NCBI GenBank assembly: GCA_015075545.1
Contig: JABTUC010000008.1
Coordinates: 1 to 64,000 of the forward strand
Source: Ideonella sp.
GTDB lineage: Bacteria > Pseudomonadota > Gammaproteobacteria > Burkholderiales > Burkholderiaceae_C
Length of the DNA stretch: 64,000 nt
Direction: 5' to 3'
In this document: one piece after another, positions 34,397-50,616 of the stretch
How positions within the stretch are numbered: the stretch's first letter is position 1
Layout: the number at the start of each line of letters is the position of its first letter
Translations under genes and position numbers: made by a program
The notes under the pieces: model-generated
Told to the model about the DNA's origin: nothing
The model's input: the letters and a program-made list of their open reading frames with translations, nothing else
Database searches by the model: none

Positions 34397-37090
34397 TCAG
34401 CGCTCCGGCGCGTGGTTGCGCAGCAGCTCGGCGAACTCGGCTGCCGAGACCGGCTTGCTGAAGAAGAAACCCTGCATCTGGTCGCACGCGCGCTCGCGCA
34501 GGAACTGCTGCTGCTCGAGCGTCTCCACGCCCTCGGCCACCACCGTCAGGCTGAGCGTGCGGCCCATGGCGATGATCGCCTCGGCGATGGCCTTGTCTTC
34601 GCTGTCGCTCGGCAGCTCGCGGATGAACGAACGGTCGACCTTGAGAGTGTCGATCGGAAAGCGCTTGAGCTGCGCCAGCGACGAGTAGCCGGTGCCGAAG
34701 TCGTCGATCGCCAGCCACACGCCCATCGCCTTGAGCGCGCCGAGCACCTCGAGCGCACGCTCGACGTTGTGCATCACCGAGCTCTCGGTGACCTCCAGCT
34801 CGAGCAGATCGGGCGCGAGCCCGGTCTCGACCAGCACGTTGCGCACCGCGCCCACCAGCTCCGGGTCGAGCAGTTGGCGCGGCGAGAGGTTGACCGACAC
34901 CCGCACCGGTGGCAACCCGGCGCGCTGCCAGGCGACGCCTTGCGCGCAGGCGTTGCGCAGCACCCAGCGGCCGATCGTCAGGATCAACCCGGTCTCCTCG
35001 GCCAACGGGATGAATTTGGCCGGCGACACCGGCCCCAGCTCGGTGCTCGTCCAGCGCAGCAGCGCCTCGACGCCGGCGATGGTGTTGTGCGCCAGGTCGA
35101 GCTTGGCCTGGTAGTGCAGCGACAGCTCGTTGCGCTCGATGGCGCGGCGCAGCTGCGTCTCCAGCGTCAGCCGCTCGAGCGACATCGTCTCCAGCCGGCC
35201 ATCGTAGAACTGGAAGTTGTTCTTGCCTTCCTCCTTGGCGTGGTACATCGCCAGATCGGCATGCGTCATCAGCAGCATCTCGTCGCGCGCATCGTCGGGG
35301 AACAGCGAAATGCCGATGCTGGCCGTGACGCGGCACTCCTGGCTGTTGAGCTCGATCGGGCGGATCACCGCCGACAGCAGCTTGCGCGCGATCGTCGCCG
35401 ACTCCTCGGCGCTGTTCAGGTCCTGCAGCAGCATCACGAACTCGTCGCCGCCCAGGCGCGCCACGATGTCGCTGGCGCGCAGGCTCTCCTTCAGCCGCCG
35501 CGCCACCTCGCGCAGCAGCGCGTCGCCGGCGTCGTGACCGAGGCTGTCGTTGATGAACTTGAAGCGGTCGAGGTCGATGAACAGCACCGCGAAGCGGCGT
35601 TCGTTGCGGCGCGCCGACGCCAGCACGTGGCTCAGCAGCTCGGCGAACATCACCCGGTTGGGCAGCCCGGTCAGGCTGTCGTGGGTGGCCAGGTACTCGA
35701 TGCGCGCCTCGGCCTGCTTGCGCGACGTGATGTCGCGCGAGACGCCGCGGTAGCCGACGAAGCGCCCTTCGGCGTCGTGCAGCGGCTCGCCGCTGCCGCT
35801 GATGTGACGGCGCCGGCCGCGCTTGTCGGTGTACGCGTACTCGAAGTCGCGGAACGACTCGCGGCGCTCCAGCCGGGCACGCAGGTCGGCCCAGCCGAGG
35901 TCGCTGTCGGCGCCGGGCAGATCCCAGGCCAGGCGGCCGCGCAGCCGCTGCGCCGCCTCTTCCTTGCCCGCGCCGCCGAAGACGGTGTAGCGCAGGTCGG
36001 CGTCGAGCTCCCAGTACCAGTCGGACGACAGCTCCACCAGGCTCTTGAAGCGCTGCTCACTGCGCTGCAAGGCCAGCTCGGCGAGCTTGCGCGACGTGAC
36101 GTCCTGCGTCACCGAGATGTCGTGCAGCGGGCGGCCGGCGCCATCGCGCTGCACCGACACGGTGAGCTGCACCCACACCGTCGAGCCATCCTTGTGCAGG
36201 TAGCGCTTCTCGAGCTGGAACGAATCGATCTCGCCCGCGCGCAGGCGCGAGCGCAGCGAATCGGTGGCGTTGCGGTCGTCGGGGTGCGAGATCTGCTTGA
36301 CGGTCTTGCCCAGCAGCTCGTCGCGCGGGTAGCCGAGCATCTCGCACAGCGCGCGGTTCACCTGGATGTAGCGTCCGCCTTCGTCGACGTGCGAGATGCC
36401 GGTCGCCGCCAGTTCGATGGTGTCGGCATAGCGCTTCTCGCTCTCGCGCAGCGCGGCCTGCGCCTGCGCGCGCAGGCAGAACTGGCCGATCTGGCTGCCG
36501 ATGTAGCGCGTGCACTCGAGCAGCTCGGCGTCGAGCTCGGCGACATCCTGGCTGTAGAACTCGACCACGCCGAGCACCCGGCCCGAGGCCACGATCGGAA
36601 ACGCGAACGCGCTGCGCAGCCCGGCGCGCGCGGCGTGCGGCGCGCGCCCGAAGCTGGGCTCGGCGGTCACGTCGCGCATCCACACCGGCGCGCCGGCGAG
36701 CCAGCTACGGCGCACCAGGCCGCCTTGCACGGCCACCTGGCGCTGCCCCGCGGTCAAGCGCACGAACGCCTGCACCGGCGCCTCGTCGATGCCCCAGCCG
36801 CCGATGCAGCGCATCGTGTCGTCGTGCGCCTCGTCGAGCCAGACGGCACCGCAGGCCCAGCCCAGTTCCTCGCACACCGCGCGCACGACCAGCGGCGCCG
36901 CCTCGCGCAGATCGAACGAGCGCGACAGCGCGCCCGTGACGCCGTGCTCGATCACCAGCCGCTGCGCGGTGCGCGAACGGCGCAGCTGCTCGGGGGTCAT
37001 GCGCAGCGCCGCCGGCTCGTAGCTTCCAAGCTCGGCCAGGACGGATTCGCTGGGTGTGACGTCGCGCATGAGGCTCACCAGGGTGGACAT
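34397..37090 (-). CDS. GAF-PAS-PAS-GGDEF-EAL cyclic-di-GMP turnover protein
   Basis: A cytoplasmic signalling protein of about 897 residues. A GAF-like domain is at about 40-190, PAS domains with PAC ends at about 200-320 and 335-450 (SEQRFKSLVELSSDWYW...), a GGDEF domain at 460-620 with intact RLGGDEFVMLLQ, and an EAL domain at about 630-885 with AGVEALLRW, DDFGTGYSSL and VVAEGVET, so both the diguanylate cyclase and phosphodiesterase motifs look active. The start is uncertain (GTG 37129, ATG 37090 and ATG 37069 are all in frame); ATG 37090 is chosen provisionally. It ends next to the double hairpin and is followed by the tRNA in the opposite direction. Confidence 0.92.
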   Translation of the reverse strand: MSTLVSLMRDVTPSESVLAELGSYEPAALRMTPEQLRRSRTAQRLVIEHGVTGALSRSFDLREAAPLVVRAVCEELGWACGAVWLDEAHDDTMRCIGGWGIDEAPVQAFVRLTAGQRQVAVQGGLVRRSWLAGAPVWMRDVTAEPSFGRAPHAARAGLRSAFAFPIVASGRVLGVVEFYSQDVAELDAELLECTRYIGSQIGQFCLRAQAQAALRESEKRYADTIELAATGISHVDEGGRYIQVNRALCEMLGYPRDELLGKTVKQISHPDDRNATDSLRSRLRAGEIDSFQLEKRYLHKDGSTVWVQLTVSVQRDGAGRPLHDISVTQDVTSRKLAELALQRSEQRFKSLVELSSDWYWELDADLRYTVFGGAGKEEAAQRLRGRLAWDLPGADSDLGWADLRARLERRESFRDFEYAYTDKRGRRRHISGSGEPLHDAEGRFVGYRGVSRDITSRKQAEARIEYLATHDSLTGLPNRVMFAELLSHVLASARRNERRFAVLFIDLDRFKFINDSLGHDAGDALLREVARRLKESLRASDIVARLGGDEFVMLLQDLNSAEESATIARKLLSAVIRPIELNSQECRVTASIGISLFPDDARDEMLLMTHADLAMYHAKEEGKNNFQFYDGRLETMSLERLTLETQLRRAIERNELSLHYQAKLDLAHNTIAGVEALLRWTSTELGPVSPAKFIPLAEETGLILTIGRWVLRNACAQGVAWQRAGLPPVRVSVNLSPRQLLDPELVGAVRNVLVETGLAPDLLELEVTESSVMHNVERALEVLGALKAMGVWLAIDDFGTGYSSLAQLKRFPIDTLKVDRSFIRELPSDSEDKAIAEAIIAMGRTLSLTVVAEGVETLEQQQFLRERACDQMQGFFFSKPVSAAEFAELLRNHAPER

Positions 37091-37213
37091 CCGGATATCG
37101 GCGCCGCCGCAGGCGACTTGAGCGCGCACCCGCGTCGATTCAGCGGGCGAATGTGGCAGCCGCGACGCGGCCGGCCGCAGGGGCGCTCGCTATAATCCGC
37201 GCCCTCGCACCCA

Positions 37214-37289
37214 GCCGGTGTAGCTCAGTTGGTAGAGCAGCGCATTCGTAATGCGAAGGTCGACAGTTCGAGTCCGTCCATCGGCACCA
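37214..37289 (+). tRNA. tRNA-Thr (anticodon CGT)
   Basis: A 76-base cloverleaf with encoded CCA. Acceptor GCCGGTG pairs with CATCGGC (one G-U), the D arm is GCTC...GAGC, the anticodon loop is TTCGTAA (anticodon CGT, reading ACG), the T arm GACAG...CCGTC has one A-C mismatch, and ACCA ends the molecule. A TATAAT-like sequence lies about 25 bases upstream (around 37190-37198). Confidence 0.95.
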
Positions 37290-37302
37290 GCCTTAAGCCT
37301 GT

Positions 37303-37343
37303 CCGACCCTGAGACACGGCGGGCCGGACCTGAGACACCGGCG
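37303..37343 (+). repeat. Short tandem duplication 3' of tRNA-Thr
   Basis: CCGACCCTGAGACACGGCG (37303-37321) is followed after two bases by CCGGACCTGAGACACCGGCG (37324-37343), two imperfect copies of a CCTGAGACAC motif. Short motifs of this type occur near IS481-type ends, but no transposase is present; origin unknown. Confidence 0.45.
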
Positions 37344-37447
37344 ACATCCGCAGGCCGAGCCGCGGAAGGTGGGTCGGCGCAGTGGGAACCCGCTGTTTTC
37401 GTGCGCTTTGCACCGACGGCGATGCCGGCCGCGGCCAAACGCGGCAC

Positions 37448-38149
37448 TCAGCCACCGCCCGCGGGCAGGCGCGACATGTAGTCGGCGAGCGCGTCGAGCT
37501 CGGCATCGCCCATCGGCCCGACCACATTGACCATGCGCGGATTGGCGTTGCGGCGCGCGCCGTCGCGAATGTCGACCATCTCGCGCAGCAGGTAACGGTA
37601 GTGCTGGCCGGAAACGCGCGGGTAGAACTTGCTCGCGTCGCCCTCGCCGGCCCTGCCGTGACATTCGGCGCAGTGGCTGTCGTAGCTGCGCTGCGCAGCA
37701 TCGAGCCCGGCGCCGCTGCCGCGACCGTTGTTGGGTGGCGAAGGCAGCTTCGACAGGTAGACGGCAATATCGGCGATGTCTTGCGGGCTCAACACGTGGC
37801 GGTCGGCGAACGGCAGCATCGTTGTGTTGCTGCGGCGGCCGGCGCGCACGTCGGTGAGCTGCTTGATCAGCACGGTGTCGTGCTGACCCGCCAGCCTCGG
37901 GTAGCTGCCGTCGGGGCGGCCCAGCGCTCCTGCCCGGTGGCAGCCTTGGCACACCTCGAACGCGATGGCGCCGCGCGTGGCGTCGCCGTGTGCACGCAGC
38001 GCGATCAGCTTCTCGCCCTGCATCTGGTTCCAGGTGTACTCGGGTTCGTCGGCCCGCGGCGGGGCGCCGCAGCCGGCCAGGCCCGCCGCCACGGCGAACA
38101 AGGCCAAGTTGCGTGGCCACCGGCGGCCCGACGATGTACGCATGGTCAT
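37448..38149 (-). CDS. Dihaem c-type cytochrome, lipoprotein
   Basis: A 233-residue exported dihaem protein. A lipoprotein signal is visible (LALFAVAAGLAGCGAPP). Two haem-binding motifs are CQGCH near residue 70 and CAECH near 160, with downstream Met candidates (TTMLPFADRHVLSP; PRMVNVVG), so it resembles the cytochrome c553/c4 group, an electron carrier. The ATG at 38149 (or 38143, two codons inside) gives the signal. It begins 5 bases after the preceding cytochrome gene and is the last gene of the MtrAB-type cluster. Confidence 0.88.
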   Translation of the reverse strand: MTMRTSSGRRWPRNLALFAVAAGLAGCGAPPRADEPEYTWNQMQGEKLIALRAHGDATRGAIAFEVCQGCHRAGALGRPDGSYPRLAGQHDTVLIKQLTDVRAGRRSNTTMLPFADRHVLSPQDIADIAVYLSKLPSPPNNGRGSGAGLDAAQRSYDSHCAECHGRAGEGDASKFYPRVSGQHYRYLLREMVDIRDGARRNANPRMVNVVGPMGDAELDALADYMSRLPAGGG

Positions 38150-38154
38150 CTTTC

Positions 38155-38760
38155 TCACGGCAGCGTCGCCAGGTACTGAGCCACCGCCGCCATCTCGTCG
38201 TCGCTCAGGCGTGCCGCGACGGCGCGCATGACGCGGGCCTTGTCGTTCTTGCGCACGCCGCTCTTGAACGCCTTCATCTGGTCGAGTGCATAGCTCGGCA
38301 CCTGGCTCGCCAGCCGCGGGTAGCGCTCGTTGCCCGTGGCACCCTCGGCGTGGCAGCCCACGCACGCGGGAACCCCGGTGGCGGTGTTGCCGTCCGCGTA
38401 CAAGGCCTTGCCGGCGGCGACGAGCTTCTCGTCGCTCGCCCCGGCCGGCCTGGGCTTCTGCGCCGCGTAGTACGCAGCCACCGTCGCCACGTCGGCCGCC
38501 TTCAGGGCCTCGAGGGCGGGCGCCATCGCATCGTTGCTGCGGCGACCGGCCAGAAAGTCGCGCAGCTGCTTGTCGAGATACTCGGCGCGCTGCCCGGCGA
38601 GCTGCGGAAACGCCGGCACCGGCGGGTTGCCGTCCGCGCCGTGGCAGGCCTGGCACATCGTCTGCACCACCTCGGGCAGTGGTTGCGCCGATGCGCCAGC
38701 CAGCACCGCAGCGAGGAGCCACGCCGCGGTGCGGGGCGTCGCACTCGCGCGACTCACCAT
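38155..38760 (-). CDS. Dihaem c-type cytochrome (c4-like)
   Basis: A 201-residue exported protein with an N-terminal signal (AAWLLAAVLAGASAQ) and two haem motifs, CQACH near residue 44 and CVGCH near 143. It carries the c4-type context FPQLAGQRAEYLDKQLRDFLAGRRSNDAM and YPRLASQVPSYALDQMKAFKSGVRKNDKARVM, with Met ligands after each motif. It overlaps the end of the outer-membrane barrel gene by 7 bases, so the cluster is translationally linked. Probably a periplasmic electron shuttle for the MtrAB-type complex. Confidence 0.9.
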   Translation of the reverse strand: MVSRASATPRTAAWLLAAVLAGASAQPLPEVVQTMCQACHGADGNPPVPAFPQLAGQRAEYLDKQLRDFLAGRRSNDAMAPALEALKAADVATVAAYYAAQKPRPAGASDEKLVAAGKALYADGNTATGVPACVGCHAEGATGNERYPRLASQVPSYALDQMKAFKSGVRKNDKARVMRAVAARLSDDEMAAVAQYLATLP

Positions 38761-41516
38761 GCGACCTGCACGAACGCACCCAACGCGTTGACGCGATAGT
38801 CCTGCGGGCCGGAGTCGAGATAGGTCTGCTGGTTGGCCGCCGGCGTGGGGTTGGCGGCCACACCGTCGTAGTGCCAGTCGCTGATCCGCCCGCGCTCGTG
38901 GCGCAGCAGCAGGCGCAGGGTCACATTGCGGTTCACCGGCATCAGCAGGTTCGCATCGAGCACCTGCTGGCGCAGCGTCATCGCGGGGAAGCCGCCCCCG
39001 ACGAGCGCTGCGGCGGCCGGCGTCATCGCCAGTGCAGCGGCGTTGTAGGTGTAGTCGAGCGTGCTGCGGCTGCTGGCCCAGGTGTAGGTGGCGTCCAGCC
39101 GCACGCGGCCGAAGTCGTGACGGCCGCCGATGCCCAGGCTCGTGCTGCGGTCGGTCTGGGTGGCCGACCAACTGCGGCTCGAGGGGAAGAGCGGGCTCAA
39201 GGCATCGGCCGTGCCGCACAGCGCGAGGAAATTGGCACCGGTCAGGGCGCCCGCGGTGCCGACGACCGTCTGGCCCACAGGCGGCACCGCACTGGTGCCG
39301 ACGGTGCCGTCGCTGTACAGGTAGTAGGTGTTGCCCAGCACGCAGGCGTTCGACTGCACACCGTACTGGCGCATCCGCGCGTCCTGCTGCGAGGCAAAGC
39401 CGAACAGGCCGGTATTCGGCGTGGGCTGCCAGTTCAGGTCGAGGTTCAGCGAGTTCTGCGTCTGCCGGCCGGTGCGGCCATACGCCGAGTCGGGGTACTT
39501 CTGCTCGCGCGCCTGCGCCGCCAGCATGAGATCGAGGTTGTCCGCCAGCGCGGTGTTGAAGCGCAGGTTGAGCACCATCTGGTCGCGGTCGGCGAGGTCG
39601 AACTTGCGATGCAGCGAGTTGATGTGGATCCAGCCCGCCACATTGGTGCCGTTGGCCGTGGGCTCGGGCCCCATCGAGACGCTGAAGAACTCCTCGTACG
39701 GGTCGGAATGGTAGGTGCTGCCGCGCCGGCGCGAGCCTTCGAGCGAGGCGCGCAGCGTTCCGCCGGCGAGGTTGCGATGCACGTAGCCCAGCTTGAGGCG
39801 ATCGTCCCAGGTGCGGTCGCGTTCGCGGTGCGATCGCTCGATAGTTTCGCGCTCGAGCTGGACGTTGAACGCCTGGCTGCGCGCGAAGCGCCACTCCGCG
39901 GCCGCGCTGATGTTGTCCTGCGTGTGGTCGTAGGGGACGTTGGCGATGTTGACGTTGCCTGCGCTGGGCACCAGCCCCAGCGCCCGCACGGCATCGAGGT
40001 TGCACAGCGCGGCGTTGTACGCGGTCGGCAAGGTTCCGACCGGGTTGTTGCCGGGCGTCACGTTCGGCACCACCGCCGCCACGCCGCTGCCATCGTTGAT
40101 CAGGCGCGCCCACTGGCCGGTGAGCGGGTTGCAGCTCAGGTACTCGGGTGTGTCGTTGGAGGTCTCGTAGCGTCGCAGCTTCGCGCGCACGTCGACACTC
40201 GGCGCAGGCGCGAAGGCGGCCCCGAGATCGAGCAGGCGGGTGTCCATGCGGGCGCGCGCGCTGTCGCGGTACAGCGACGCCGTCGTGTCCCAGGCGCCGC
40301 CCGCGATGCCGTTGACGATTGCAGCCGCGTATGGCGTGGGCGGAATCAGCGCGTCGTTCTGGCGCATCCGCGTCAGCGATACGACTCCGGTCAGTCGCAT
40401 GCGGGCGAACTCGGGCATCGAGTGCGCGACTTCGGCCCTCAGGTTGTACATGTCGTTGTCGGGGTACAGGTCGAACACCGCCTGCGGGAAGCTGGCGAGG
40501 CCGTTGGCCGGCGCGACGAACAACGGGCTGTCGACGGTCATCGTGCCGACGCGGTTGCGGAACATCGAGGCCGACGCCTGGACGTTGGCGCTCGTGCGCT
40601 GGCCGCTCCAGCGCAGCCCGGCCACCAGGTCGGTGGTGCGGTAGTCGATCGACTCGGGAATCTCGACGCCGCCCGTGCCGCCGCCGCCGCCCATGACCAT
40701 GCCGAACGGTCGCGCGCCCTTGCGGTTCTCGTTGGTGAGGTTGGCAAAGACCTCGAGCGAGTCGCTCAGATGCACATCGAAGCGCAGCCCGCCCTTCTCG
40801 CGCAGCGCGCTGAGCGACGAATACGGCGTGGCCAGCGCGGCGGCGCCGATCGCGGCATCGGTGGTGGCGGCGGTGGCCGGCGCCACCGGGCCGGCCACCA
40901 GCGGACTGCGCAGCGTCAGGCGCGCGCCGCCCGTGCCGTCCCAGAGGTTTCGGTAGGTGCTGGTGAAGACGTGATTGGTCTCGTTGTAGAAACCGCTCAG
41001 CTTCCAGGCGTTGTGGCGCCCGATGCTGGCGCCGATGTACTGGTCGTGGTAGCCGATGCCGCCGGCCTCGGCTTCGACGAACAGCCCTCGGGCGGGGTTC
41101 TCCGCCTCGAACGACAAGCCTGCAAGGTAGGGGCCGTTCTTCAGCGTGCGGTACTGCCTGAACAGCGCCGCATCGCGGTCGCCGCCGACGCTCAAGCCGC
41201 CGAGCTCGACGCTGCCGCGCGTCAGCCAGCCGCCATCGCCGAGCGCGCTCTTCTCGCCGAGAACGTACGGCGCCAGGTGCAGGAAGCCGGTCGGCGTGCG
41301 TTGGTTGGCGCTCTCGGCACCGAGCCCTTCCGCATCGCGCAGGCGCAAACCGCCCGACAGCGGCACGATGCTGTTGCCCAGCGTCGTATCGCCGATCAGG
41401 CCCGAGTCGGCCCACGCAGCCGGCGCCGCCAGGCTGGTGGCTGCCGCAAGGGCGACGAGCGAGCGGTGCGGCGCGAAAGCGGGCCGTCTGCGGATGACAC
41501 GTCGACGTGAACTCAT
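38754..41516 (-). CDS. MtrB/PioB-family decahaem-associated outer membrane barrel
   Basis: A 920-residue outer-membrane beta-barrel of the MtrB/PioB family, which wraps the decahaem cytochrome and lets electrons cross the outer membrane. A signal peptide ends near APAAWA-DSG. The long chain of amphipathic strands includes STYRNLWDGTGGARLTLRSP, DYRTTDLVAGLRWSGQRT and RQQVLDANLLMPVNRNVTLR, and it ends in Trp (FVQVAW), normal for barrels. MtrB proteins usually have a CXXC near the mature N-terminus; none is seen here, as in many PioB-type proteins. It lies 15 bases after the decahaem gene. Confidence 0.92.
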   Translation of the reverse strand: MSSRRRVIRRRPAFAPHRSLVALAAATSLAAPAAWADSGLIGDTTLGNSIVPLSGGLRLRDAEGLGAESANQRTPTGFLHLAPYVLGEKSALGDGGWLTRGSVELGGLSVGGDRDAALFRQYRTLKNGPYLAGLSFEAENPARGLFVEAEAGGIGYHDQYIGASIGRHNAWKLSGFYNETNHVFTSTYRNLWDGTGGARLTLRSPLVAGPVAPATAATTDAAIGAAALATPYSSLSALREKGGLRFDVHLSDSLEVFANLTNENRKGARPFGMVMGGGGGTGGVEIPESIDYRTTDLVAGLRWSGQRTSANVQASASMFRNRVGTMTVDSPLFVAPANGLASFPQAVFDLYPDNDMYNLRAEVAHSMPEFARMRLTGVVSLTRMRQNDALIPPTPYAAAIVNGIAGGAWDTTASLYRDSARARMDTRLLDLGAAFAPAPSVDVRAKLRRYETSNDTPEYLSCNPLTGQWARLINDGSGVAAVVPNVTPGNNPVGTLPTAYNAALCNLDAVRALGLVPSAGNVNIANVPYDHTQDNISAAAEWRFARSQAFNVQLERETIERSHRERDRTWDDRLKLGYVHRNLAGGTLRASLEGSRRRGSTYHSDPYEEFFSVSMGPEPTANGTNVAGWIHINSLHRKFDLADRDQMVLNLRFNTALADNLDLMLAAQAREQKYPDSAYGRTGRQTQNSLNLDLNWQPTPNTGLFGFASQQDARMRQYGVQSNACVLGNTYYLYSDGTVGTSAVPPVGQTVVGTAGALTGANFLALCGTADALSPLFPSSRSWSATQTDRSTSLGIGGRHDFGRVRLDATYTWASSRSTLDYTYNAAALAMTPAAAALVGGGFPAMTLRQQVLDANLLMPVNRNVTLRLLLRHERGRISDWHYDGVAANPTPAANQQTYLDSGPQDYRVNALGAFVQVAW

Positions 41517-41531
41517 CTGCGTCCTCCTCGA

Positions 41532-42482
41532 TCAGCGCTGGAAGCGCGCACCGCTCGGGTGATTGCTGCCGTGGATCTGCGAGTGGCAGTTCTGGCAGCT
41601 ACGCCCGATGACCCGCTGGCCCGCCACGCCGCCCGGGAGTTGCGCCGCGGCGGCCGTCTGGTTGGCGCCGTAGAAGGTGCCCGGATGGAAGATCTGGTTG
41701 TGGCACTGCTGACACAGCTGAGGTCGCGTCGCAACCAGCAGCTTGTCGTGGTTCGAACCGTGCGGACTGTGGCAGTTCAGGCAGCTCTCGCGCACCGGCG
41801 CGTGCTCCCACAGCATCGGCCCGCGCTTCTCGGCGTGGCATGCGTAGCAGACGTCGTTGACGCTGTCGGCCTTGAGCAGCGGCCGCGTCGGGCTGCCGTG
41901 CGGGTTGTGGCAATCGGCGCAGCTCATCTTGCCCTCGGGCAACGGCATGTGCGATCGCTTGGCGAACTCCGAGCGCTGCTGGCGGTGACAGTTCTGGCAG
42001 GTGTCGTTGATCGTCGCGCGCACCAGCAGGGCGCGGTCGGACCCCTTCATCATCGGGTTATGGCAATCGGCGCAGCTGAGCTGGTTGCTGGCATGCACCG
42101 AACCCGGCCAGTGCAGCCGGTTGCCCCCGCTGTGGCACGACAGGCACGCGGCGGTCTGCACCTCCGGCGGGGTGCCCGAGGCCCGCGTGAAGCCGATGAT
42201 GAGACTCTTGTCGGACGCCTTCTTCGCATGCGCCGCGCCCGGCCCGTGGCAGGCCTCGCAACCGGCGCGCTCGCGTTCGTTGGCCGGGTTGCCGCGGAAG
42301 ATCTTGGCGTGCCCGGTTTCGCGGAAGTGCGCCTCCTCCTGCGTGTGGCAGCCGATGCAGACCTTCTCGCCGACGTAGCCGTTGGCCTGTGCCTGCGCAG
42401 CCGGGGCCACGACGGCGGCCAGGGCGACCATCAGGAAGACGCGAACGACCGGGCTCCACAGGTGCTGCGTGATGTCGCGCAT
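41532..42482 (-). CDS. Decahaem c-type cytochrome (DmsE/MtrA/PioA family)
   Basis: A 316-residue periplasmic cytochrome. The signal peptide is VVRVFLMVALAAVVAPAAQAQ. Ten CXXCH motifs are visible in order: CIGCH, CEACH, CLSCH, CADCH, CQNCH, CADCH, CYACH, CLNCH, CQQCH and CQNCH. The arrangement matches MtrA/DmsE, the periplasmic part of a trans-outer-membrane wire. The MtrB/PioB barrel gene follows immediately, and an AraC regulator precedes it by about 145 bases on the same strand. Whether electrons flow out (metal reduction) or in (Fe(II) oxidation) cannot be told; its N-terminus lacks the extra PioA extension. Confidence 0.95.
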   Translation of the reverse strand: MRDITQHLWSPVVRVFLMVALAAVVAPAAQAQANGYVGEKVCIGCHTQEEAHFRETGHAKIFRGNPANERERAGCEACHGPGAAHAKKASDKSLIIGFTRASGTPPEVQTAACLSCHSGGNRLHWPGSVHASNQLSCADCHNPMMKGSDRALLVRATINDTCQNCHRQQRSEFAKRSHMPLPEGKMSCADCHNPHGSPTRPLLKADSVNDVCYACHAEKRGPMLWEHAPVRESCLNCHSPHGSNHDKLLVATRPQLCQQCHNQIFHPGTFYGANQTAAAAQLPGGVAGQRVIGRSCQNCHSQIHGSNHPSGARFQR

Positions 42483-42628
42483 GACCCCTCCATTGCCCCG
42501 CGGCGGGGACACTTCGCCCCCGCATGTGCCGCAGCCTAGGCCCACGCCATGCCGTGCGGTTGCCCGCCAGCGCACCATCGGTTGACGTTTCGTGCACCTG
42601 CGCGCCGGTGCACCCGATGCGGCGCCGA

Positions 42629-43555
42629 TCAGAGCGACGATGGCGGCACGCCGAAGCGCTTGCGGAAAGCGCGGCTGAAGTGCGCCGGGCTCTCGAAGCC
42701 CCAGCCGATCGCGATGTCGGCGATGCGACGCGCGCCGCGCGCAGCGATCTCGCGCCGGCACGCCTCGAGGCGCTGCTCGCGCACCCAACCCATCACGCCA
42801 TGCTCTCGCCCGGCGTACAGCTTGTGCACGTAGCGCGCCGACAGACCGAGATCGGCCGCGAGCTGCGCGATGCACAGATCGCGATCTCGCAGGTGTGCGC
42901 GCAGCCAGCTCTCGATGCGACGGCGGTGGAAATCGGCGAGGCGACCCTGCCCGGCGGTGTCGCCGGCGGGCTGCGCAGGTGCGCGACGCAGGCCCTCGAC
43001 CAGGTGCAGCGCCGTCGCACCGAGGCGATCGCGGTCGCTTGCCCCGAGCTGCCGATGATGGGCGACCACGAAGCGCAGCAGCCCCGCCACCGCCGACGCC
43101 GGCGCCGACTCCGCCGGGATGCGATTCAGCAGATGCTGAGCCCAATCGGGCAGACAGGCATCCAGTTCGTGCCGAGGCACGTTGAACAGGACCTGGGCGA
43201 ACGACGTGACCCGGTCGACGACGATGTCGCGGTCCGGCGGCACGATGCAGGCATCGCCGGGCGCAAGCTCGACCCGGCGGCCACGATCGGCGAAGATCGA
43301 CACGCCGCGGGTCTGGAACACGAGCGACACCCAGCCCGCACGGCTGGGCCCGCGACGCAAGGTGCGATACGCCCGGCCTTCGATCGCAACCAGCTCGGTC
43401 ACCCCGCAGGCCAGCACCCGCATTGCGGCGTCGAAGTCGGGCTCCAGCGGCTCGATGCGGCATTCGGCGGCGAGTGCCGTGCGCATGGCCTCGCGCCAGT
43501 ACTCCACGCGTTCGCCACGGTCCACCCGTTGTGTCGCAAGACAGAGTTCGGACAT
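42629..43555 (-). CDS. AraC-family transcriptional regulator
   Basis: A 308-residue regulator with an N-terminal AraC-binding/cupin-like domain (VSLVFQTRGVSIFADRGRRVELAPGDACIVPPDRD) and a C-terminal double helix-turn-helix (DRDLCIAQLAADLGLSARYVHKLYAG; RIADIAIGWGFESPAHFSRAFRKRFGVPPSSL). It resembles the FeaR/AraC_binding_2 group. It is the first gene of the strand that carries the MtrAB cluster, with a 146-base gap to the decahaem gene, so it is the likely local activator; the inducer is unknown. Confidence 0.9.
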   Translation of the reverse strand: MSELCLATQRVDRGERVEYWREAMRTALAAECRIEPLEPDFDAAMRVLACGVTELVAIEGRAYRTLRRGPSRAGWVSLVFQTRGVSIFADRGRRVELAPGDACIVPPDRDIVVDRVTSFAQVLFNVPRHELDACLPDWAQHLLNRIPAESAPASAVAGLLRFVVAHHRQLGASDRDRLGATALHLVEGLRRAPAQPAGDTAGQGRLADFHRRRIESWLRAHLRDRDLCIAQLAADLGLSARYVHKLYAGREHGVMGWVREQRLEACRREIAARGARRIADIAIGWGFESPAHFSRAFRKRFGVPPSSL

Positions 43556-43904
43556 GCGCCGCCGCCTCTCCCTCGAAGACGACTCCCCCGGGTCACTGTG
43601 GGCCGTTCTCGATCGGCCGGCCTTGCTTCAGTTCAAGTTCAGCCTGTCGGCAGGGCCGCCGCTGCCGGTGCTCACGGTGCACGCCGTCGGCGACCCGACG
43701 GCGTTCGTCGAGTTGGAGTCCGCGTTTCGCCGGCGCGCGCTGCCGCTTCCTGCCGCAATACCAGCCGGCACCGCTGGCGTCGCGCGTGCCGCCGCGCTGA
43801 CGGCGGCGCTGCAGCGAGGGATCAGCGACGCTCAGGCCCGGCGCGGGAGCCGGCGGCGCCCCAGGGCCTGGCGAGCGAGCCGTGCGCGCTCGGCGACCCG
43901 CATC
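43556..43904. other. 349-base region without a supported gene
   Basis: Between the AraC gene and the MaoC gene. The open frames here are long only because the DNA is GC-rich, and none has a credible product. It contains one copy of a 75-79-base direct repeat (43764-43842) whose other copy lies on the far side of the MaoC gene. No promoter can be fixed by eye. Confidence 0.6.
43764..43842. repeat. Direct repeat copy 1 flanking the MaoC gene
   Basis: This stretch shares most of its bases with 44376-44450, including the 20-base block CCGCTGGCGTCGCGCGTG and the CGACGCTCAGGCCCGGC end. The two copies bracket the MaoC gene; internally each contains GC-rich inverted segments that could act as terminators after the upstream gene. 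Confidence 0.7.
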
Positions 43905-44363
43905 TCACGCCGTGGGACGACGCAGGAAGAACTGCGTACCGATCATCGTCACCGGAATCTCGTCGCGTTGATTGAGCAGTTCCCAGCGCCAGCGCACGAT
44001 GCCGCGCTCGGGCCTGCTCGCCGAGGCGCGCGATTCGAGGACGCTGGCACGATAGCGCAGCGCGTCGCCCGCACGGACGGGGAGAGCCATGCGCCAATCC
44101 TCGATGCCAGGCGCACCGATGCACGAAGACTCGTTGAGATACGCGTCGCACATCATGCGCATCAGCATGCAGCCGCTGTGCCATCCCGACGCGATCAGAC
44201 CGCCGTAGGGGGTTTCCTTGGCCGCCACCGGGTCGACGTGATAGCGCTGCGGATCCCACTGCCGGGCGAAGTCCACGATCTCGTCGTGCGCGATCGTGCG
44301 CGGGCCGTGCTCGAACACCCGGCCTGCCGGGAAATCCTCCCAGTAGTAGCGGAAGCGGGTCAT
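43905..44363 (-). CDS. MaoC-family (R)-hydratase-like protein
   Basis: A 152-residue single hot-dog domain protein. The MaoC/hydratase motif is in FARQWDPQRYHVDPVAAKETPYGGLIASGWHS, with the conserved Asp and His of enoyl hydratases. Such proteins hydrate short enoyl-CoA; the substrate here is not known. The start at 44363 has a GGAGG site. It follows the DUF302 gene and is bracketed by two direct-repeat copies. Its link to the sulfur genes is by position only. Confidence 0.85.
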   Translation of the reverse strand: MTRFRYYWEDFPAGRVFEHGPRTIAHDEIVDFARQWDPQRYHVDPVAAKETPYGGLIASGWHSGCMLMRMMCDAYLNESSCIGAPGIEDWRMALPVRAGDALRYRASVLESRASASRPERGIVRWRWELLNQRDEIPVTMIGTQFFLRRPTA

Positions 44364-45075: not shown

Positions 45076-45546
45076 TCAGATGAACAGGCAGACGTCGGTG
45101 TCGCCCGCGAACGCCAGGAAGGTGGCCGCGCCGCCGAAGTCGATGCCGTCGATGAAGTCTTCCTTCTTGAACTCGAACAGGTCGACGGTCATCTGGCAGG
45201 CGATGAACTTGACGCCGGCCTCGAGGCACAGCTCGCGCAGCTCGGTCAGCGAGGCGACGCCCTTCTTCTTCATCTTGTCCTTCATCATCATCGTGGCCAT
45301 CGACTCCATGCCAGGCAGGATCGACACCACCACCGGCATCGGCACCGGCATCGGCATCGCCGGGTTGGCCAGCGGGCTGATCTTGATGCCGCTCAGGTCC
45401 TTGCGCAGCAACTGCAGGCCGTAGAAGGTGAAGAACACCTGCACGTCCCAGCCCATCGCGGCGGCCGTCGACGACAGGATCAGCGGTGGGTACGCCATGT
45501 CGAGCGCGCCCTTGGTGGCGATGATCGCCATCTTCTTTGCAGCCAT
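45076..45546 (-). CDS. DsrE-family protein (DsrE2 type)
   Basis: A 156-residue DsrE/DsrF-superfamily sulfur carrier. Marks are KMAIIATKGALDMAYPPLILSSTAAAMGWDVQVFFTFYG, a Met-rich middle (MPMPVPMPVVVSILPGMESMATMMM), and the single Cys in FIACQMTVDLF, which is the probable persulfide site; the Met-rich turn and the GMES motif fit DsrE2, usually paired with TusA. The start has a strong GGAGGAG site. TusA lies 31 bases upstream on the same strand. Confidence 0.9.
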   Translation of the reverse strand: MAAKKMAIIATKGALDMAYPPLILSSTAAAMGWDVQVFFTFYGLQLLRKDLSGIKISPLANPAMPMPVPMPVVVSILPGMESMATMMMKDKMKKKGVASLTELRELCLEAGVKFIACQMTVDLFEFKKEDFIDGIDFGGAATFLAFAGDTDVCLFI

Positions 45547-45577
45547 GGTTTCTCCTCCAGTCTGGCGCAGCAGGCTC

Positions 45578-45805
45578 TCAGGCCTTGCGGATCATGAACA
45601 CGTACTTCTTGTTCTCGGTGGTCGACGACAGCAGCGTATGGCCGGTCTGCTCGGTGAACGCCTGCATGTCGCCCACCGAACCGGGGTCGGTGGCGACAAC
45701 GCGCAGCACCTGGCCCGAGGCCATGTCGGCCAGCGCCTTCTTGGTCTTGACGACCGGCAGCGGGCACGACAGACCCGATGCATCGAACTCCTTGTCATAG
45801 CTCAT
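45578..45805 (-). CDS. TusA-family sulfur carrier
   Basis: A 75-residue sulfur-relay protein with the active CPxP site in GLSCPLPVVKTKKAL, plus LRVVATDPGSVGDMQAFTEQTG. TusA accepts sulfane sulfur on its single Cys and passes it to DsrE-type partners and, in sulfur oxidisers, to sulfite-generating enzymes. It is followed at 31 bases by the DsrE2-type gene, the normal TusA-DsrE2 pair of lithotrophs. A possible regulatory repeat lies upstream. Confidence 0.94.
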   Translation of the reverse strand: MSYDKEFDASGLSCPLPVVKTKKALADMASGQVLRVVATDPGSVGDMQAFTEQTGHTLLSSTTENKKYVFMIRKA

Positions 45806-45864
45806 CTGTGTTCTCCGTCGGCCTGCGCGGCCGCTGGGTGCAGGCGGCGCGCCGCCGATTACGG

Positions 45865-45922
45865 GGTAGCCCTGCGGGGGCGTCTACTACCGCTAAGGAT
45901 GATGCACGGTAGCCCATGTGGG
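45865..45922 (-). promoter_or_regulatory. Repeated GGTAGCCC element upstream of tusA
   Basis: GGTAGCCCTGCGGGG (45865-45879) and GGTAGCCCATGTGGG (45908-45922) are two similar 15-base sequences 43 bases apart in the 165-base gap between FadL and TusA genes. Two such boxes ahead of a gene look like a dimeric regulator site; the protein is unknown. Confidence 0.35.
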
Positions 45923-45970
45923 TAGTGCGCAAGCGGCGCGCCGCGCGCGAGGCGTCGCACGGCGCTCGCA

Positions 45971-47266
45971 TCAGAACTTGTGGCCCCATGCCATGCCGAT
46001 CTGCGACTGGCGCATGCGGATGGTCTCGTTGCCGCCCGCGCCGGCGCCGAGCACCGCGTTGAAGAGCGAACTGCCGGTCACGCTCTGCCGCGGCGCAAAC
46101 ATCAGCGCGCCGGTCAGTTCGTTGTCCTTGCTCAGGGCGACGGTGAAGCCCGCGGTGTAGTGGTCCTTCATCACCCCGGGCGCCAGGATGTTGAAGCTTA
46201 CGTCGGCCGGCTCGATCGGGTTGCCGCCGCGGTTGTAGCCGACGCGCACGGTCCAGGCGTCGCTGGCGCGCCAGGCGACGCCGACCTTGAAGACGTCGAT
46301 GTTCTTCCAGCCGAACCCCGGGCCGTTGGCGGCGCCCAGCGGCGCAGCCGCCGAACTCGGGTTGCCGACCGACGGCACGCCGGCGTACTTGATGCGGCCG
46401 TAGTCGATCGCCACGGTCCATGCCGGGTTCGGCGTGATGGCCACGCCGACGCTGTAGTGCTCGGGGATGTCGAAGTCGCCGGCGCCCGCGAACAGGCCCT
46501 TGTACTTGTCGAAGCGGCTCATGTTCATCTTCGGCGCGTAGGCCGCGCCGATCGCGAACTGCTCGCTCAGGCGACCCTGGTACCCCAGGCGCACGCCGAC
46601 GCCGGTGGAGGAGTCGTAGCCGTTGTCGGTGACGCTGCCCGGCGCGCCGGTGAACGGCGGGAAGCCCGGTGCATTGTCGAACGCCTGCAGGCCGCGCATC
46701 TTGAAGCGCTGGTAGCCCAGCAGCAGCGCCAGACCGACGGCATGCTGCTCGTTGATCTTGTAGGCCAGCGTCGGCGCGACGACCAACTGCGACAGGTCGA
46801 CCCCGAGCGTACCGCTGCCGCACAGCATGTTGGCCGGCCCGGCACCGCAGTTGAAATTGCCCTGCGGGTACGAGGTGTTCATGCCGCCATTGCCGTACAC
46901 GGTGAGGCCCAGCGACAGGTTGCTGCCCAGCATGCGGTTGTAGCCGAACTCCGGCACCAGGAACACGTTGCTGTCGCTCTCGACCTTGCCGTTGAGCGTG
47001 GGGAAGCCCGCGCCGCTGCGCTCGGCGTCGCGCTGCGGCATGAACAGGTCGGCGCCGACGTCGATGCGCGAGCCGACGAACACCATCGACGCCGGGTTGG
47101 TGGCGCCGCCCAGGCTGTCTTGCGCCATCGCGGTCGATGCGCCGCCCATGCCCTTGGCTTTCATGCCGTAGCCGTGCGGAAAGTAGCCGTTGGTCGCCAG
47201 CGCCGAGCCGGCCACGCAGGCCGCGGCCAGCGGCAGCAAGCGAAGAAGCGATCTCGAGCGTGTCAT
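45971..47266 (-). CDS. FadL/OmpP1-family outer membrane transport protein
   Basis: A 431-residue outer-membrane barrel for hydrophobic substrates. The signal is LLPLAAACVAGSALA, and the mature N-terminal plug has TNGYFPHGYGMKAKGMGGASTAMAQDSLGGATNPASM, the clear FadL NPA region. Strands such as GVRLGYQGRLSEQFAIGAAYAPKM and AWRASDAWTVRVGYNRGGNPIEP follow, ending in GMAWGHKF. In sulfur-oxidising bacteria FadL-like porins sit beside sulfur genes and are proposed to admit elemental or polymeric sulfur; that function is inference here. Confidence 0.92.
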   Translation of the reverse strand: MTRSRSLLRLLPLAAACVAGSALATNGYFPHGYGMKAKGMGGASTAMAQDSLGGATNPASMVFVGSRIDVGADLFMPQRDAERSGAGFPTLNGKVESDSNVFLVPEFGYNRMLGSNLSLGLTVYGNGGMNTSYPQGNFNCGAGPANMLCGSGTLGVDLSQLVVAPTLAYKINEQHAVGLALLLGYQRFKMRGLQAFDNAPGFPPFTGAPGSVTDNGYDSSTGVGVRLGYQGRLSEQFAIGAAYAPKMNMSRFDKYKGLFAGAGDFDIPEHYSVGVAITPNPAWTVAIDYGRIKYAGVPSVGNPSSAAAPLGAANGPGFGWKNIDVFKVGVAWRASDAWTVRVGYNRGGNPIEPADVSFNILAPGVMKDHYTAGFTVALSKDNELTGALMFAPRQSVTGSSLFNAVLGAGAGGNETIRMRQSQIGMAWGHKF

Positions 47267-47336
47267 CGTCTGTCTCCTTGATCAGGCGTTTGGTTGCCGG
47301 TCGATCCGGTGGTGGTGGTGGATGCGCGCCGGCCGC

Positions 47337-47963
47337 TCACCAGCGCGCGAGAACGCGCCCGTTGGCGATGCTGCTCTCCCACTGGGTGAGCGGGCGGTCG
47401 CCGCGGGCGATGCAGCGGCCGCTGCGCACGTCGAACACCCACTGGTGCTTGGGGCAGGTGAGCGTCGTGCCTTGCAGCGCGAGTTGCGTGATGTCGGTGC
47501 CTTGATGCGGGCAGCGGCTGTCGAACACCTTCCAGCCGTCGTCGCCGTGGTGAACGAACAGGCCGCGGCCGTCGCAATCGACGCGCGCGATGCCGCCGGG
47601 CGCCAGGTCGGCCTCGGCCATCACGTCGTGCCACGCACCCTCGGCGCCGAGCGCAGCGGGTTGGAACTGCGGCAGATCCATCGCCAGGATGATGTCCACC
47701 GCCCACACGATCTTGGCCAGCCCGAGCGCCGGAAACGCCATCAGCAGCGCATCGAGGATCTCGGCGGCGCTGCAGCCTTCGTGCAGCGCACGGCCGAGAT
47801 ACTGGCGAAAGCCGCGCTCGGTGCGCGAATGCACCTTGGTGATCAGCGAGATCAGCGCGCGCGTCTTCGGGTCGAGGTGCTTGCCGCTGTCCTTCAGGAA
47901 CGCGAAGTAGTGGCCCATCGCCTCGGGGCGGGCCTTGACGAGGAAGCTCAGGGCATCGCTCAT
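47337..47963 (-). CDS. Fusion of carboxymuconolactone-decarboxylase-like and Rieske [2Fe-2S] domains
   Basis: A 208-residue protein. Residues about 1-95 are an AhpD/carboxymuconolactone-decarboxylase helical core (ALISLITKVHSRTERGFRQYL, HEGCSAAEILDALLMAFPALG) but with a single Cys where AhpD has CXXC. Residues about 105-208 are a Rieske ferredoxin: RCPHQGTDITQLALQG and TCPKHQWVFDVRSGRC, giving the CXH...CXXH cluster ligands. No signal peptide. The row SafE-like exporter, small membrane protein, this protein, FadL is all minus strand. Function unknown; a redox partner of a neighbouring enzyme is the natural guess. Confidence 0.88.
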   Translation of the reverse strand: MSDALSFLVKARPEAMGHYFAFLKDSGKHLDPKTRALISLITKVHSRTERGFRQYLGRALHEGCSAAEILDALLMAFPALGLAKIVWAVDIILAMDLPQFQPAALGAEGAWHDVMAEADLAPGGIARVDCDGRGLFVHHGDDGWKVFDSRCPHQGTDITQLALQGTTLTCPKHQWVFDVRSGRCIARGDRPLTQWESSIANGRVLARW

Positions 47964-48000
47964 GGTCGTTCGCTCCCGGCACCGATGACGCGCCGCGCCT

Positions 48001-48423
48001 TCAGTGTGCTGCTGCCAGCCCCGAGGCGGCCAGCACGATGACCGCCACCTCGGCCAGGCACACCGCGGCGAACGCACGCTCGCCGCGCGCCAGGTAGATC
48101 GGCAGCAGCGCGAGCAGGCACCACGCCGAGGTGCCGGCCAGGATCGCGATGCCCAGCAGGCCGGCGATGTCGCCGCGGTGCAGCAGCGCTACCCAGCCCC
48201 AGCCGGCGGGCGACTCGCTCAGCTCGAGAAAACGTCCCACCGGGTGCACCCACAGCTCGGGCAGGCGCGACACCGGCACGTGCGACTCGGCCAGGCCGAA
48301 CACATAGGCCGCGAAGGCGAGCAGCAGCACCGTCATGCCAACGCGCGTGCTCCACTCGAGCCAGCGCGCGTAGCGCAACTGCTCGGGCGGCTGCATCGAC
48401 GCTGACGGCTCGTTCACGGCCAT
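48001..48423 (-). CDS. DUF-type three-helix membrane protein next to TauE/SafE
   Basis: A 140-residue membrane protein with about three helices (VGMTVLLLAFAAYVFGLAES, IAGLLGIAILAGTSAWCLLA, FAAVCLAEVAVIVLAASG). A cytosolic N-terminus (MAVNEPSASMQPPEQLRYARWLEWST) resembles the small DUF1634-like or YeeE/YedE-associated proteins that accompany TauE/SafE transporters. It overlaps the exporter gene by 10 bases and therefore is probably its translationally coupled subunit. I do not recognise a named family. Confidence 0.75.
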   Translation of the reverse strand: MAVNEPSASMQPPEQLRYARWLEWSTRVGMTVLLLAFAAYVFGLAESHVPVSRLPELWVHPVGRFLELSESPAGWGWVALLHRGDIAGLLGIAILAGTSAWCLLALLPIYLARGERAFAAVCLAEVAVIVLAASGLAAAH

Positions 48424-49349
48424 ACGCCGGTGCCCTTGAGCAATGCGCGCACGCCGGCGAACACCAGCACGGCGATGACCAGGCGCCGCACCGTCGCCGC
48501 GGCAAAGGTGTGCAGCAGGCGCGCGCCGATGCGCGCGCCGAGCATCATGCCGATCACCGACGGCACGGCGATCATCGGCAGCACCGCGCCCTGGTTCAGG
48601 TAGACCCACGCCGCCGACGAATCCACCAGCGACAGCACCACGCCCGAGGTGCCGGCGGCAACCTTGAGCGGCGCGCCCATCAGCAGGTTCAGCGCCGGCA
48701 CGTTGGCCCAGCCGGCGCCGAGCCCGAACATGCCGGCCAGCACGCCGATGGCGGTGAAGCACAGCAGCCCGGCGGGCGTGCGGTGCACCCGCCAGGCGTG
48801 CACGCGCTGCGTCGCGCCGTCGACGAACACACCGTTGAGCGCCAGCGCCTGCGAGAGCCGGCCGGGCCGCTCGACGAGCGGGAACTCCGACCGCCTGGAG
48901 ACGAACATCAGCGCCACGATGCCCAGCACCACGATGCCCAGCAGCACCTGCACGAGGTGTGCCGGCATCGCCAGACCGGCCAGTGCGCCGACGATCGACG
49001 AGGCCGATGCCAGCACCGCCAGCGGCAGCGCCAGGCGCAGGCTGCCCAGCCCGCTGCGCAGCAGCATCGGCCCGGCCGCCAGCGCGCTGGCCAGCGCCAC
49101 CAGCAGCCCGGCACCGCGAACGAAATCGAGGTGGAACGGAAAGAAGCCGCCGACGATCGGCACGAACAGCGTGCCGCCGCCGATGCCCGCGGGGACGGCG
49201 ACGATGCCGATGACGAAGCAGATCGCGCACAGGCCGAGCGGCCACACCCACCACGGCGCCGCGCTCGCACCCGCCGGGCCCGCGGCGTGCGCCGACGCCG
49301 ACGACAGCACCAGGGCCGAGATCACGAGGGCGGCGGCGCGGCGGTGCAT
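48414..49349 (-). CDS. TauE/SafE-family sulfite/sulfonate exporter
   Basis: A 311-residue inner-membrane protein of the TSUP (DUF81) family. About eight helices are visible, preceded by a possible signal/first helix (LVISALVLSSASAHA). The two repeat motifs are VPAGIGGGTLFVPIVGGFFPFHLDFVRG and ALAGMFGLGAGWANVPALNLLMGAP. Such proteins are thought to export sulfite or organosulfonates; placement between the sat/apr block and TusA/DsrE supports sulfite, but this is inference. Confidence 0.9.
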   Translation of the reverse strand: MHRRAAALVISALVLSSASAHAAGPAGASAAPWWVWPLGLCAICFVIGIVAVPAGIGGGTLFVPIVGGFFPFHLDFVRGAGLLVALASALAAGPMLLRSGLGSLRLALPLAVLASASSIVGALAGLAMPAHLVQVLLGIVVLGIVALMFVSRRSEFPLVERPGRLSQALALNGVFVDGATQRVHAWRVHRTPAGLLCFTAIGVLAGMFGLGAGWANVPALNLLMGAPLKVAAGTSGVVLSLVDSSAAWVYLNQGAVLPMIAVPSVIGMMLGARIGARLLHTFAAATVRRLVIAVLVFAGVRALLKGTGVWP

Positions 49350-49475
49350 GGGCTATCGGGCCGCGCCCGGCCGGCACCGCGCCTTATGGCTGACCGGAAT
49401 TTCGATATGAAAAGGCAGTCGTGGCGCCGGTGCGGACCGCTGGCGAGAATCGCGCTGCGACGCCGCGCCACCGCC

Positions 49476-49865
49476 ATGGAACACCTTCACCCCACGCAGG
49501 CCAGCGACGCCCTGCAGGCCAACCCCCACATCCTGCTGATCGACTGCCGCACCGAGGTCGAGCACTACTATGTCGGCCACCCGGTCAACGCCGTCAACAT
49601 CGAGTGGCATACCGGGCCCGATTTCGAGGTCAACCCGCAGTTCGCCGAGCAGGTGCTGCGGCTGGCCGGCCGCAAGGACCGCCCGCTGATCCTGATCTGC
49701 CGCAGCGGCAAGCGCTCGGTCGACGCCGCGCTCGAGCTGGAGAAGCACGGGTTCTCCAACGTCGCCAACGTGCTCGAAGGCTTCGAGGGCGACCTCGACG
49801 CCCATCACCACCGCGGCAAGCTCGGCGGCTGGCGCAAGCACGGCCTGCCCTGGCGGCAGATGTAG
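49476..49865 (+). CDS. Rhodanese-domain protein
   Basis: A 129-residue single-domain sulfurtransferase with the active loop in ILICRSGKRSVDAAL (Cys near 86), preceded by ILLIDCRTEVEHYYVGHPVNAVNI and followed by NVLEGFEGDLDAHHHRGKLGGWRKHGLPW. The ATG at 49476 matches cytoplasmic homologues; an in-frame ATG at 49407 would add 23 basic residues. Likely gives or takes sulfane sulfur for the TusA relay. It is divergent from the TauE/SafE gene and convergent with the short gene at 49877. Confidence 0.9.
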   Translation: MEHLHPTQASDALQANPHILLIDCRTEVEHYYVGHPVNAVNIEWHTGPDFEVNPQFAEQVLRLAGRKDRPLILICRSGKRSVDAALELEKHGFSNVANVLEGFEGDLDAHHHRGKLGGWRKHGLPWRQM

Positions 49866-49876
49866 CGACGGCACGG

Positions 49877-50038
49877 CTACGGCTTCTTCGGCGTCTGGTA
49901 TCGGGCTTCCTTCTGGAACGGCTTCCAGACGGTTTCGAAGCCGACGAAGCCCTTTTCGTTGGGCGCCATCTGCCGCGTGGTCACGAAGCGCGTGACGCCG
50001 TCGGGTGTCTTGGCGGGGGCTGGTTTCGGTTCGCTCAT
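49877..50038 (-). CDS. Small conserved-looking protein at the end of the apr unit
   Basis: A 53-residue cytoplasmic protein (MSEPKPAPAKTPDGVTRF, QMAPNEKGFVGFETVWKPFQKEARYQTPKKP). It has no known domain, a Lys/Pro-rich composition and an aromatic C-terminal half. An AGGAGA ribosome site precedes its ATG, and it lies 53 bases after the FKBP gene in the same row as aprA. The real coding nature is supported by position and ribosome site only. Confidence 0.55.
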   Translation of the reverse strand: MSEPKPAPAKTPDGVTRFVTTRQMAPNEKGFVGFETVWKPFQKEARYQTPKKP

Positions 50039-50091
50039 GAGTCTCCTCTCTTGAAGGTGAGCTTCGAGTCGTCCTCGTAACGCCGCGCCGC

Positions 50092-50613: not shown

Positions 50614-50616
50614 CGC

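Follow-up and report, generated by a model that had tools for sequence, protein, structure and literature searches.

An AraC-led decahaem and barrel cassette with paired dihaem cytochromes in Ideonella, a recurring variant of the MtrAB/PioAB kind

What kind of outer-membrane electron conduit is encoded where a decahaem cytochrome and an MtrB/PioB-type barrel stand between an AraC-type regulator and two dihaem cytochromes, and which way would it carry electrons? The question is raised by a gene unit at 37448-43555 of a 64,000-nucleotide stretch (hereafter the window; positions 1 to 64,000 of contig JABTUC010000008.1, assembly GCA_015075545.1) from the draft genome of an Ideonella sp. (3.69 Mb, 13 contigs, 85% complete), in which a single barrel and a single decahaem of these types were found. 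A preliminary description had listed a decahaem with ten CXXCH motifs (MtrA), an MtrB/PioB barrel (MtrB) and two small c-type cytochromes (here c4a and c4b) behind an AraC gene, and all of these are present, on the minus strand (Table 1). The whole window holds 14 CXXCH motifs in six frames (10+2+2), every one within the conduit unit, and its plus strand has none. The unit is genuine, a coherent cassette that recurs in other genomes and varies the MtrAB/PioAB theme. We think it probable that it belongs on the PioAB side and conducts electrons inward, feeding c4 shuttles in place of PioC.

We placed the decahaem with a first tree of 144 sequences and a careful tree of 96 rows, and the barrel with a tree of 74 rows. 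The two decahaem trees agreed in setting the branch of the window apart from the others. (The "MtrC" label that the window row carries in the trees is spurious and comes from an over-long frame of 686 amino acids that holds the ten haems.) In the careful tree the window lies within a 29-row clade (support 99/95), and the barrel tree returned a matching 29-row clade with support of 100; 28 loci are common to both, the barrel clade having L038 instead of L037 because of the sequences put in. The same clade includes L174 and L175, whose decahaems carry ∼177 residues before the first haem. An N-terminal extension of ∼200 residues is given as the mark of PioA in the available part of PMC6831781, and by this proxy, the N-terminal extension only, we called the two loci PioA-type. 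The unit had been named MtrA/MtrB-type; judged by the same proxy, PioAB rather than MtrAB appears to be the closest system described. In approximately unbiased tests, a clade uniting the 22-row core with Shewanella MtrA and DmsE rows, held together, was rejected (p 3.6e-5), as was a clade uniting the core with a 33-row group that contains CymA-associated and Mto-like loci (p 7.5e-8), "Mto-like" being a label from gene context only. The DmsE rows were recognised by their neighbours (DmsA over the cut-off at 5/5 loci, DmsB at 3/5 and just under it at two), and these loci fall with Shewanella MtrA. On tree and neighbours we rejected DmsE membership of the window decahaem, and on the tree test Mto/CymA membership as far as the sampled loci go. 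Grouping with DmsE was the result that the preliminary description had named as pointing away from its suggestion of an MtrC-less conduit like those of iron oxidisers or electron uptake; the trees place the decahaem elsewhere and support that suggestion. Barrel lengths in the tree are 829-964 residues within the clade and 662-802 in the other 45 rows, and we left length unused as a marker because six unchecked frames outside the clade and not in the tree (L069, L070, L077, L118, L130 and L160) have 840-1049 residues.

Recurrence was counted with a single criterion for all loci, haem and other marker genes being listed around each decahaem and AraC-like genes being sought using the window's AraC. 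A genome scan with the window MtrA gave 39 loci out of 81 pattern matches, with Azonexus sp. R2A61, Rhodocyclus tenuis, Pseudothauera rhizosphaerae, Imhoffiella purpurea and Opitutae metagenome-assembled genomes (MAGs) among the hosts; since these patterns were taken from the peptide of the window itself, the sample is biased to close relatives. Genome searches with the model TIGR03508 found decahaems in 25/369 genomes of the class, 27/398 of the phylum and 44/399 of the order (43 over the cut-off), our own genome being counted in all three, and in 14/48 of one further class and 4/385 of another. In the core group of 19 loci, window included, a pair of dihaem genes stands behind the barrel at 13 of the 17 assessable loci, against 0/24 among the other clade members and 0/88 outside the clade; a single dihaem gene in this position was seen at one core locus, at seven other loci of the clade and at seven outside. 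An AraC-like gene lies just upstream at 10/17 assessable core loci, again counting the window, at 0/27 of the remaining clade loci and at 0/89 outside. The order of the dihaem genes, which had been thought uncommon, is thus the usual one in the clade core and was not seen outside the clade. Orthologues of c4a and of c4b each align across the cassettes.

Marker families were also sought in the host genomes. The OmcA/MtrC model TIGR03507 reached its cut-off in none of 12 cassette genomes and had no match in our own 85%-complete genome, in line with the expected lack of an outer-surface decahaem. The NapC/NirT/NrfH/CymA family (PF03264) was found neither in our own genome nor in G060, the genome of L012, which is the cassette closest to the window by path length in the tree. 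As to a PioC-type high-potential iron-sulfur protein (HiPIP), of which none had been seen, the statement stands for the window, where a pattern search gave no HiPIP-like frame, and fails for the genome, whose sole PF01355 match lies on another contig. HiPIP is present in 6/18 genomes, our own included; at L079 its gene lies directly behind a c4-like gene downstream of the barrel, and at L020 it lies ∼0.7 kb past c4b. A photosynthetic reaction centre (PF00124) was detected in 2/20 genomes, those of R. tenuis and I. purpurea, both with the cassette, and had no match in our own.

Our preference for inward flow draws on the clade, the lack of an MtrC or NapC match, the HiPIP beside two relatives and the phototrophs among the hosts, and from these we infer direction, donor and acceptor. 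By homology to 6R2Q, given as the MtrAB complex in the accessible text of PMC10654088, the decahaem would sit inside the large barrel and span the outer membrane. With no outer-surface MtrC, the decahaem tip would itself meet the donor, and the flow would most likely be into the cell, with Fe(II), reduced humics, a mineral, an electrode or a partner cell as the source. The two c4-type dihaems would replace PioC and deliver to bc1 or a terminal oxidase, and in phototrophic relatives they would deliver to the reaction centre. A c4 or HiPIP beside MtrAB is read as pointing to Fe(II) oxidation for the Ectothiorhodospiraceae in an excerpt of PMC8877833. The Mto cluster of strain ES-1 has, by the part of PMC13390432 available, two periplasmic cytochromes of differing potential; by analogy, c4a and c4b could each feed a branch of their own.

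The AraC protein would switch the unit on through a candidate tandem operator ahead of mtrA, the window's araC-mtrA gap containing TGCA-N6-GTCAA and TGCG-N6-GGCAA with starts 22 bases apart. XylS-type regulators bind TGCA-N6-GGNTA. The motif was first read by eye from four of the ten AraC-led loci (the window, L012, L014 and L016), and for this reason only the other six loci and the controls make up the independent test. We scored TGCA-N6-GGCAA twice at spacings of 20-23, with a maximum of 18. Scores of at least 14 were reached at 6/10 AraC-led loci versus 3/133 other (control) loci, and the mean score over the ten peaks at a spacing of 22. Among the six independent loci two score at least 14, L018 (where the spacing is 23 and the operator extends into the araC end) and L019; L142 has a weak operator (shuffle p 0.03), and no signal was seen at L015, L021 and L024. 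A 7-mer common to the araC-mtrA gaps was also considered and was not clearly better than shuffles. Sigma-70 promoters and terminators sought in 37000-44000 were not found. A histidine kinase and response regulator pair lies near the conduit in the AraC-less core loci L013, L017 and L041 and in the AraC-bearing L019, the families being confirmed for L017.

Several observations weigh against an inward, PioAB-side, AraC-switched conduit. The trees that join the window to the two proxy-named loci were built without authentic PioA or MtoA. In S. oneidensis, according to the available part of PMC4245776, MtrAB or MtoA/MtrB can support Fe(III) reduction when MtrC is absent, so a missing MtrC does not fix direction. 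Weak, partial matches to the MtrC model, below its cut-off, occur in 4/12 cassette genomes, and NapC-family proteins in 15/20 genomes searched, and the gene absences in our own genome are provisional because of its incompleteness. The high potential of c4a and c4b is assumed from c4 relatives. The decahaem clade also includes 14 loci labelled Opitutae or Verrucomicrobia (L023, L025-L033, L035, L038, L039 and L050), for which cross-phylum transfer is possible, and these have the dihaem pair at 0/11 assessable loci and AraC at 0/14. The operator is weak or absent at 4/10 AraC-led loci, and it is present at L041, a core locus without AraC and one of the 3/133.

The same components could instead work outward: electrons from respiration would leave the cell for soluble Fe(III), humics or an anode, and the c4 proteins would be shuttles of the PdsA kind. 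We regard this outward reading as unlikely. MtrAB-type wires can run both ways, as far as the available excerpts of the literature go, NapC-family proteins are as frequent as noted above, and PdsA, a shuttle of the MtrCAB pathway, is the top-scoring NCBIfam model (NF049874) for both dihaems; however, the two reach 59.7 and 47.4 bits, far below the cut-off of 330, the phylogeny lies on the PioA side, and neither NapC/CymA (in our own genome and G060) nor MtrC over its cut-off (in the 12 genomes) was found. An ordinary Mto-type conduit with other shuttles, functionally the same as MtoAB of Sideroxydans, is a further reading: the Gallionellaceae of culture KS have two small periplasmic cytochromes encoded downstream of mto (PMC5566968, in the part available), and the ES-1 Mto cluster has the periplasmic cytochromes PmcA and MtoD (PMC13390432, likewise). 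The group with CymA-associated and, by context, Mto-like loci did not join the core, however, and the dihaem pair is missing from every assessable locus outside the clade, which makes this reading very improbable. A DmsEF-type conduit for an extracellular dimethyl sulfoxide (DMSO) or iodate reductase is highly improbable, a reading that only the family name of the decahaem recommends: it passes TIGR03508, the "DmsE family", a model that also admits loci with MtrC-type neighbours, whereas the DmsE loci identified by neighbours lie with Shewanella MtrA and their joint clade with the core was rejected. No DmsAB was seen among the window frames scanned, our own genome not having been searched for DmsA or DmsB.

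The neighbourhood raises one further alternative, that the conduit drains the electrons of extracellular or outer-membrane sulfur oxidation. The preliminary description had placed it beside a sulfur-oxidation region, and this is borne out at 45076-56026 by genes for DsrE2, TusA, a FadL-type porin, a TauE exporter, AprA, AprB and Sat, with AprA (1080.9 bits), AprB, Sat and DsrE2 over their cut-offs and TusA and TauE identified by Pfam. Imhoffiella, one of the hosts, is a purple sulfur bacterium. In addition, c4b matches the PDB entry 5lo9 (E 3.9e-18; titled "Cytochrome C"), which we take to be TsdBA, but a plain cytochrome c4 matches it better (E 1.8e-21). An all-against-all comparison of 16 loci, covering frames of at least 90 amino acids (TusA is too short), 28000-53000 of the window (without Sat and most of AprB) and groups shared by at least three loci, returned no group that included a window sulfur gene. 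Groups with window members comprised the cassette and AraC, together with antisense or overlapping frames. Within the limits of this comparison the tie between conduit and adjacent sulfur genes is therefore unsupported, and we consider a sulfur-linked conduit improbable. Inside the sulfur region, a frame at 47337-48077 joins a carboxymuconolactone decarboxylase domain to a Rieske [2Fe-2S] domain.

Inward transfer on the PioAB side thus remains our preferred account, and comparison with described systems shows where the cassette departs from each of them. PioABC of Rhodopseudomonas palustris TIE-1 likewise combines a decahaem with an MtrB/PioB barrel, has no outer-surface cytochrome and includes a carrier in the unit, and the loci with a PioA-type N-terminal extension share the clade of the window. 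Unlike PioABC, the window's MtrA has no such extension (41 residues precede its first CXXCH), the unit has two dihaems and AraC and no HiPIP, and the genome gave no reaction-centre match. Sideroxydans lithotrophicus ES-1 (MtoAB/MtoD/ImoA/PmcA) also combines a conduit lacking MtrC with a pair of periplasmic cytochromes encoded in its cluster; its carriers are monohaem cytochromes and a tetrahaem ImoA by the accessible part of PMC13390432, whereas those of the window are dihaem c4 types, the draft genome lacks a NapC match and the CymA-associated loci form a separate branch. The mto cluster of Gallionellaceae culture KS (Cytc1, Cytc2 and Cytbc) resembles it in the two small periplasmic cytochromes behind mtoAB, but there a cytochrome b561-dihaem fusion follows (PMC5566968, available part), of which the window unit has none. 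Shewanella MtrCAB and DmsEF share the decahaem with barrel, and 6R2Q is the nearest solved structure; barrels in the Shewanella-type loci measure 658-695 residues versus 920, and the window differs in having no MtrC match, no DmsAB among the frames scanned and a rejected joint clade. The MtrAB of Ectothiorhodospiraceae has a c4 or HiPIP beside it and is said to be associated with OmcA (PMC8877833, in excerpt), in contrast to the window conduit, which has no OmcA. PdsA (PMC8805035, in part) is likewise a periplasmic dihaem protein encoded beside a conduit, and the window dihaems fall far under the cut-off of its model.

The family assignments of the individual proteins were consistent. The AraC protein passed PF12833 (HTH_18, 61.2 bits) and PF14525 (AraC_binding_2, 59.7 bits) and reached no NCBIfam equivalog, the top one being FeaR at 99.2 of 199. 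MtrA scored 259.7 bits with TIGR03508 (cut-off 192.2), has a signal peptide as judged by eye, and matched 6r2q_A in the PDB with E 4.8e-64; the molecule name that the PDB file gives for chain A of this entry is odd. The barrel scored 317 bits with PF11854 (cut-off 23) and 223.4 with TIGR03509, below the cut-off of 240.05, a shortfall shared by 3/7 other clade members scanned, and matched 6r2q_B weakly (E 2.3e-4). PF00034 (Cytochrom_C) covers two stretches in both c4a and c4b, giving each two class-I cytochrome domains, and the alignment, read by eye, has a conserved Met downstream of each CXXCH; c4a matched the cytochrome c4 6q2u with E 8.1e-39. A segment resembling YxWNxMxxEKLxALRAxGD precedes the first haem of c4b and recurs in relatives. 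The lipobox of c4b is clear in the window and was read by eye as LPGC in L012; we do not claim a conserved lipoprotein because the few other pattern matches were unconvincing.

Table 1. Features of the conduit unit in the window
Feature	Coordinates	Strand	Remarks
araC, AraC/XylS-type regulator, 308 aa	42629-43555	minus	first gene, co-directional with the rest; PF12833, PF14525
candidate tandem AraC operator, TGCACGAAACGTCAA + TGCGCTGGCGGGCAA	42560-42596	minus	starts 22 bp apart, in the araC-mtrA gap; 16/18 positions
mtrA, decahaem c-type cytochrome, MtrA/PioA superfamily, 316 aa	41532-42482	minus	ten CXXCH; TIGR03508
mtrB, MtrB/PioB outer-membrane barrel, 920 aa, last residue W	38754-41516	minus	PF11854
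c4a, dihaem c4-type cytochrome, 201 aa	38155-38760	minus	two CXXCH; PDB cytochrome c4 match
c4b, second dihaem c-type cytochrome, 233 aa, lipobox LAGC	37448-38149	minus	two CXXCH; PDB matches

The genes are closely packed: 146 bases separate araC from mtrA and 15 separate mtrA from mtrB, the c4a start overlaps the mtrB stop (within the last mtrB codons), and five bases lie between the c4a end and the c4b start, for which an alternative at 38143 is possible. A tRNA-Thr gene (37214-37289) lies immediately downstream of the unit and is convergent with it. A mobile island at this tRNA was considered and is not claimed, because the tRNA end has no repeat in the window and the G+C content shows no break; one 14-base piece of the tRNA end recurs, with a mismatch, at 31220. 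No barrel match was found in five other genomes of the genus, and among plasmid records two match MtrA (38% and 25% identity) and none matches MtrB.

Variation among the relatives was also noted. L079, L100, L110 and L113 branch off to the side within the clade, and their barrel gene is followed by a single c4-like dihaem gene. L041, from a Nitrosomonadales MAG, has tandem mtrAB-type pairs with 68% and 56% identity to the window MtrA. Three cassette loci, L016, L018 and L021, have an extra gene block in common; families of cytochrome c maturation were verified for L016 (Cytochrom_C_asm and CcmE) and L021 (CcmD) and not for the single L018 frame scanned. At L022 a gene of a PemK/MazF-like toxin family (12130-12468) stands between mtrB and c4a. 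The cassette of L020, a record titled Desulfovibrionaceae, groups with that of Azonexus (L014) and has a second decahaem downstream, which may reflect a wrong bin or transfer.

We found no prior description of an AraC-led mtrAB with two dihaem genes in the open-licence literature, which is weak evidence of absence; the closest cases there are the cytochrome pair behind mto in culture KS and the MtrAB of Ectothiorhodospiraceae. Tentatively, and with somewhat less than even confidence, we propose that these loci constitute a distinct mobile class of extracellular electron uptake, separate from Mtr, Dms, Mto and classical Pio. Its conduit would be of the PioAB side but operate outside phototrophy, and a c4 relay would replace the PioC HiPIP, the relay members feeding different branches, oxidase and bc1. 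An AraC regulator of its own would act on a TGCA-N6-GGCAA-like tandem operator, and the class would have spread through Burkholderiales, Rhodocyclales and purple sulfur bacteria.

For annotation, the automatic names "DmsE family" and "MtrB/PioB" carry no information on direction. Two dihaem genes behind the barrel, AraC ahead and no MtrC together offer a testable marker of probable electron uptake, and this marker occurs in the four cultured hosts named above. PioA-like decahaems are stated, in the available part of PMC6831781, to be conserved only in phototrophs. The genomes of L174 and L175 (G1377 and G1445; 97% and 99% complete) gave no match to a photosynthetic reaction centre, and our results suggest, contrary to that statement, that the PioA lineage is wider than the phototrophs.

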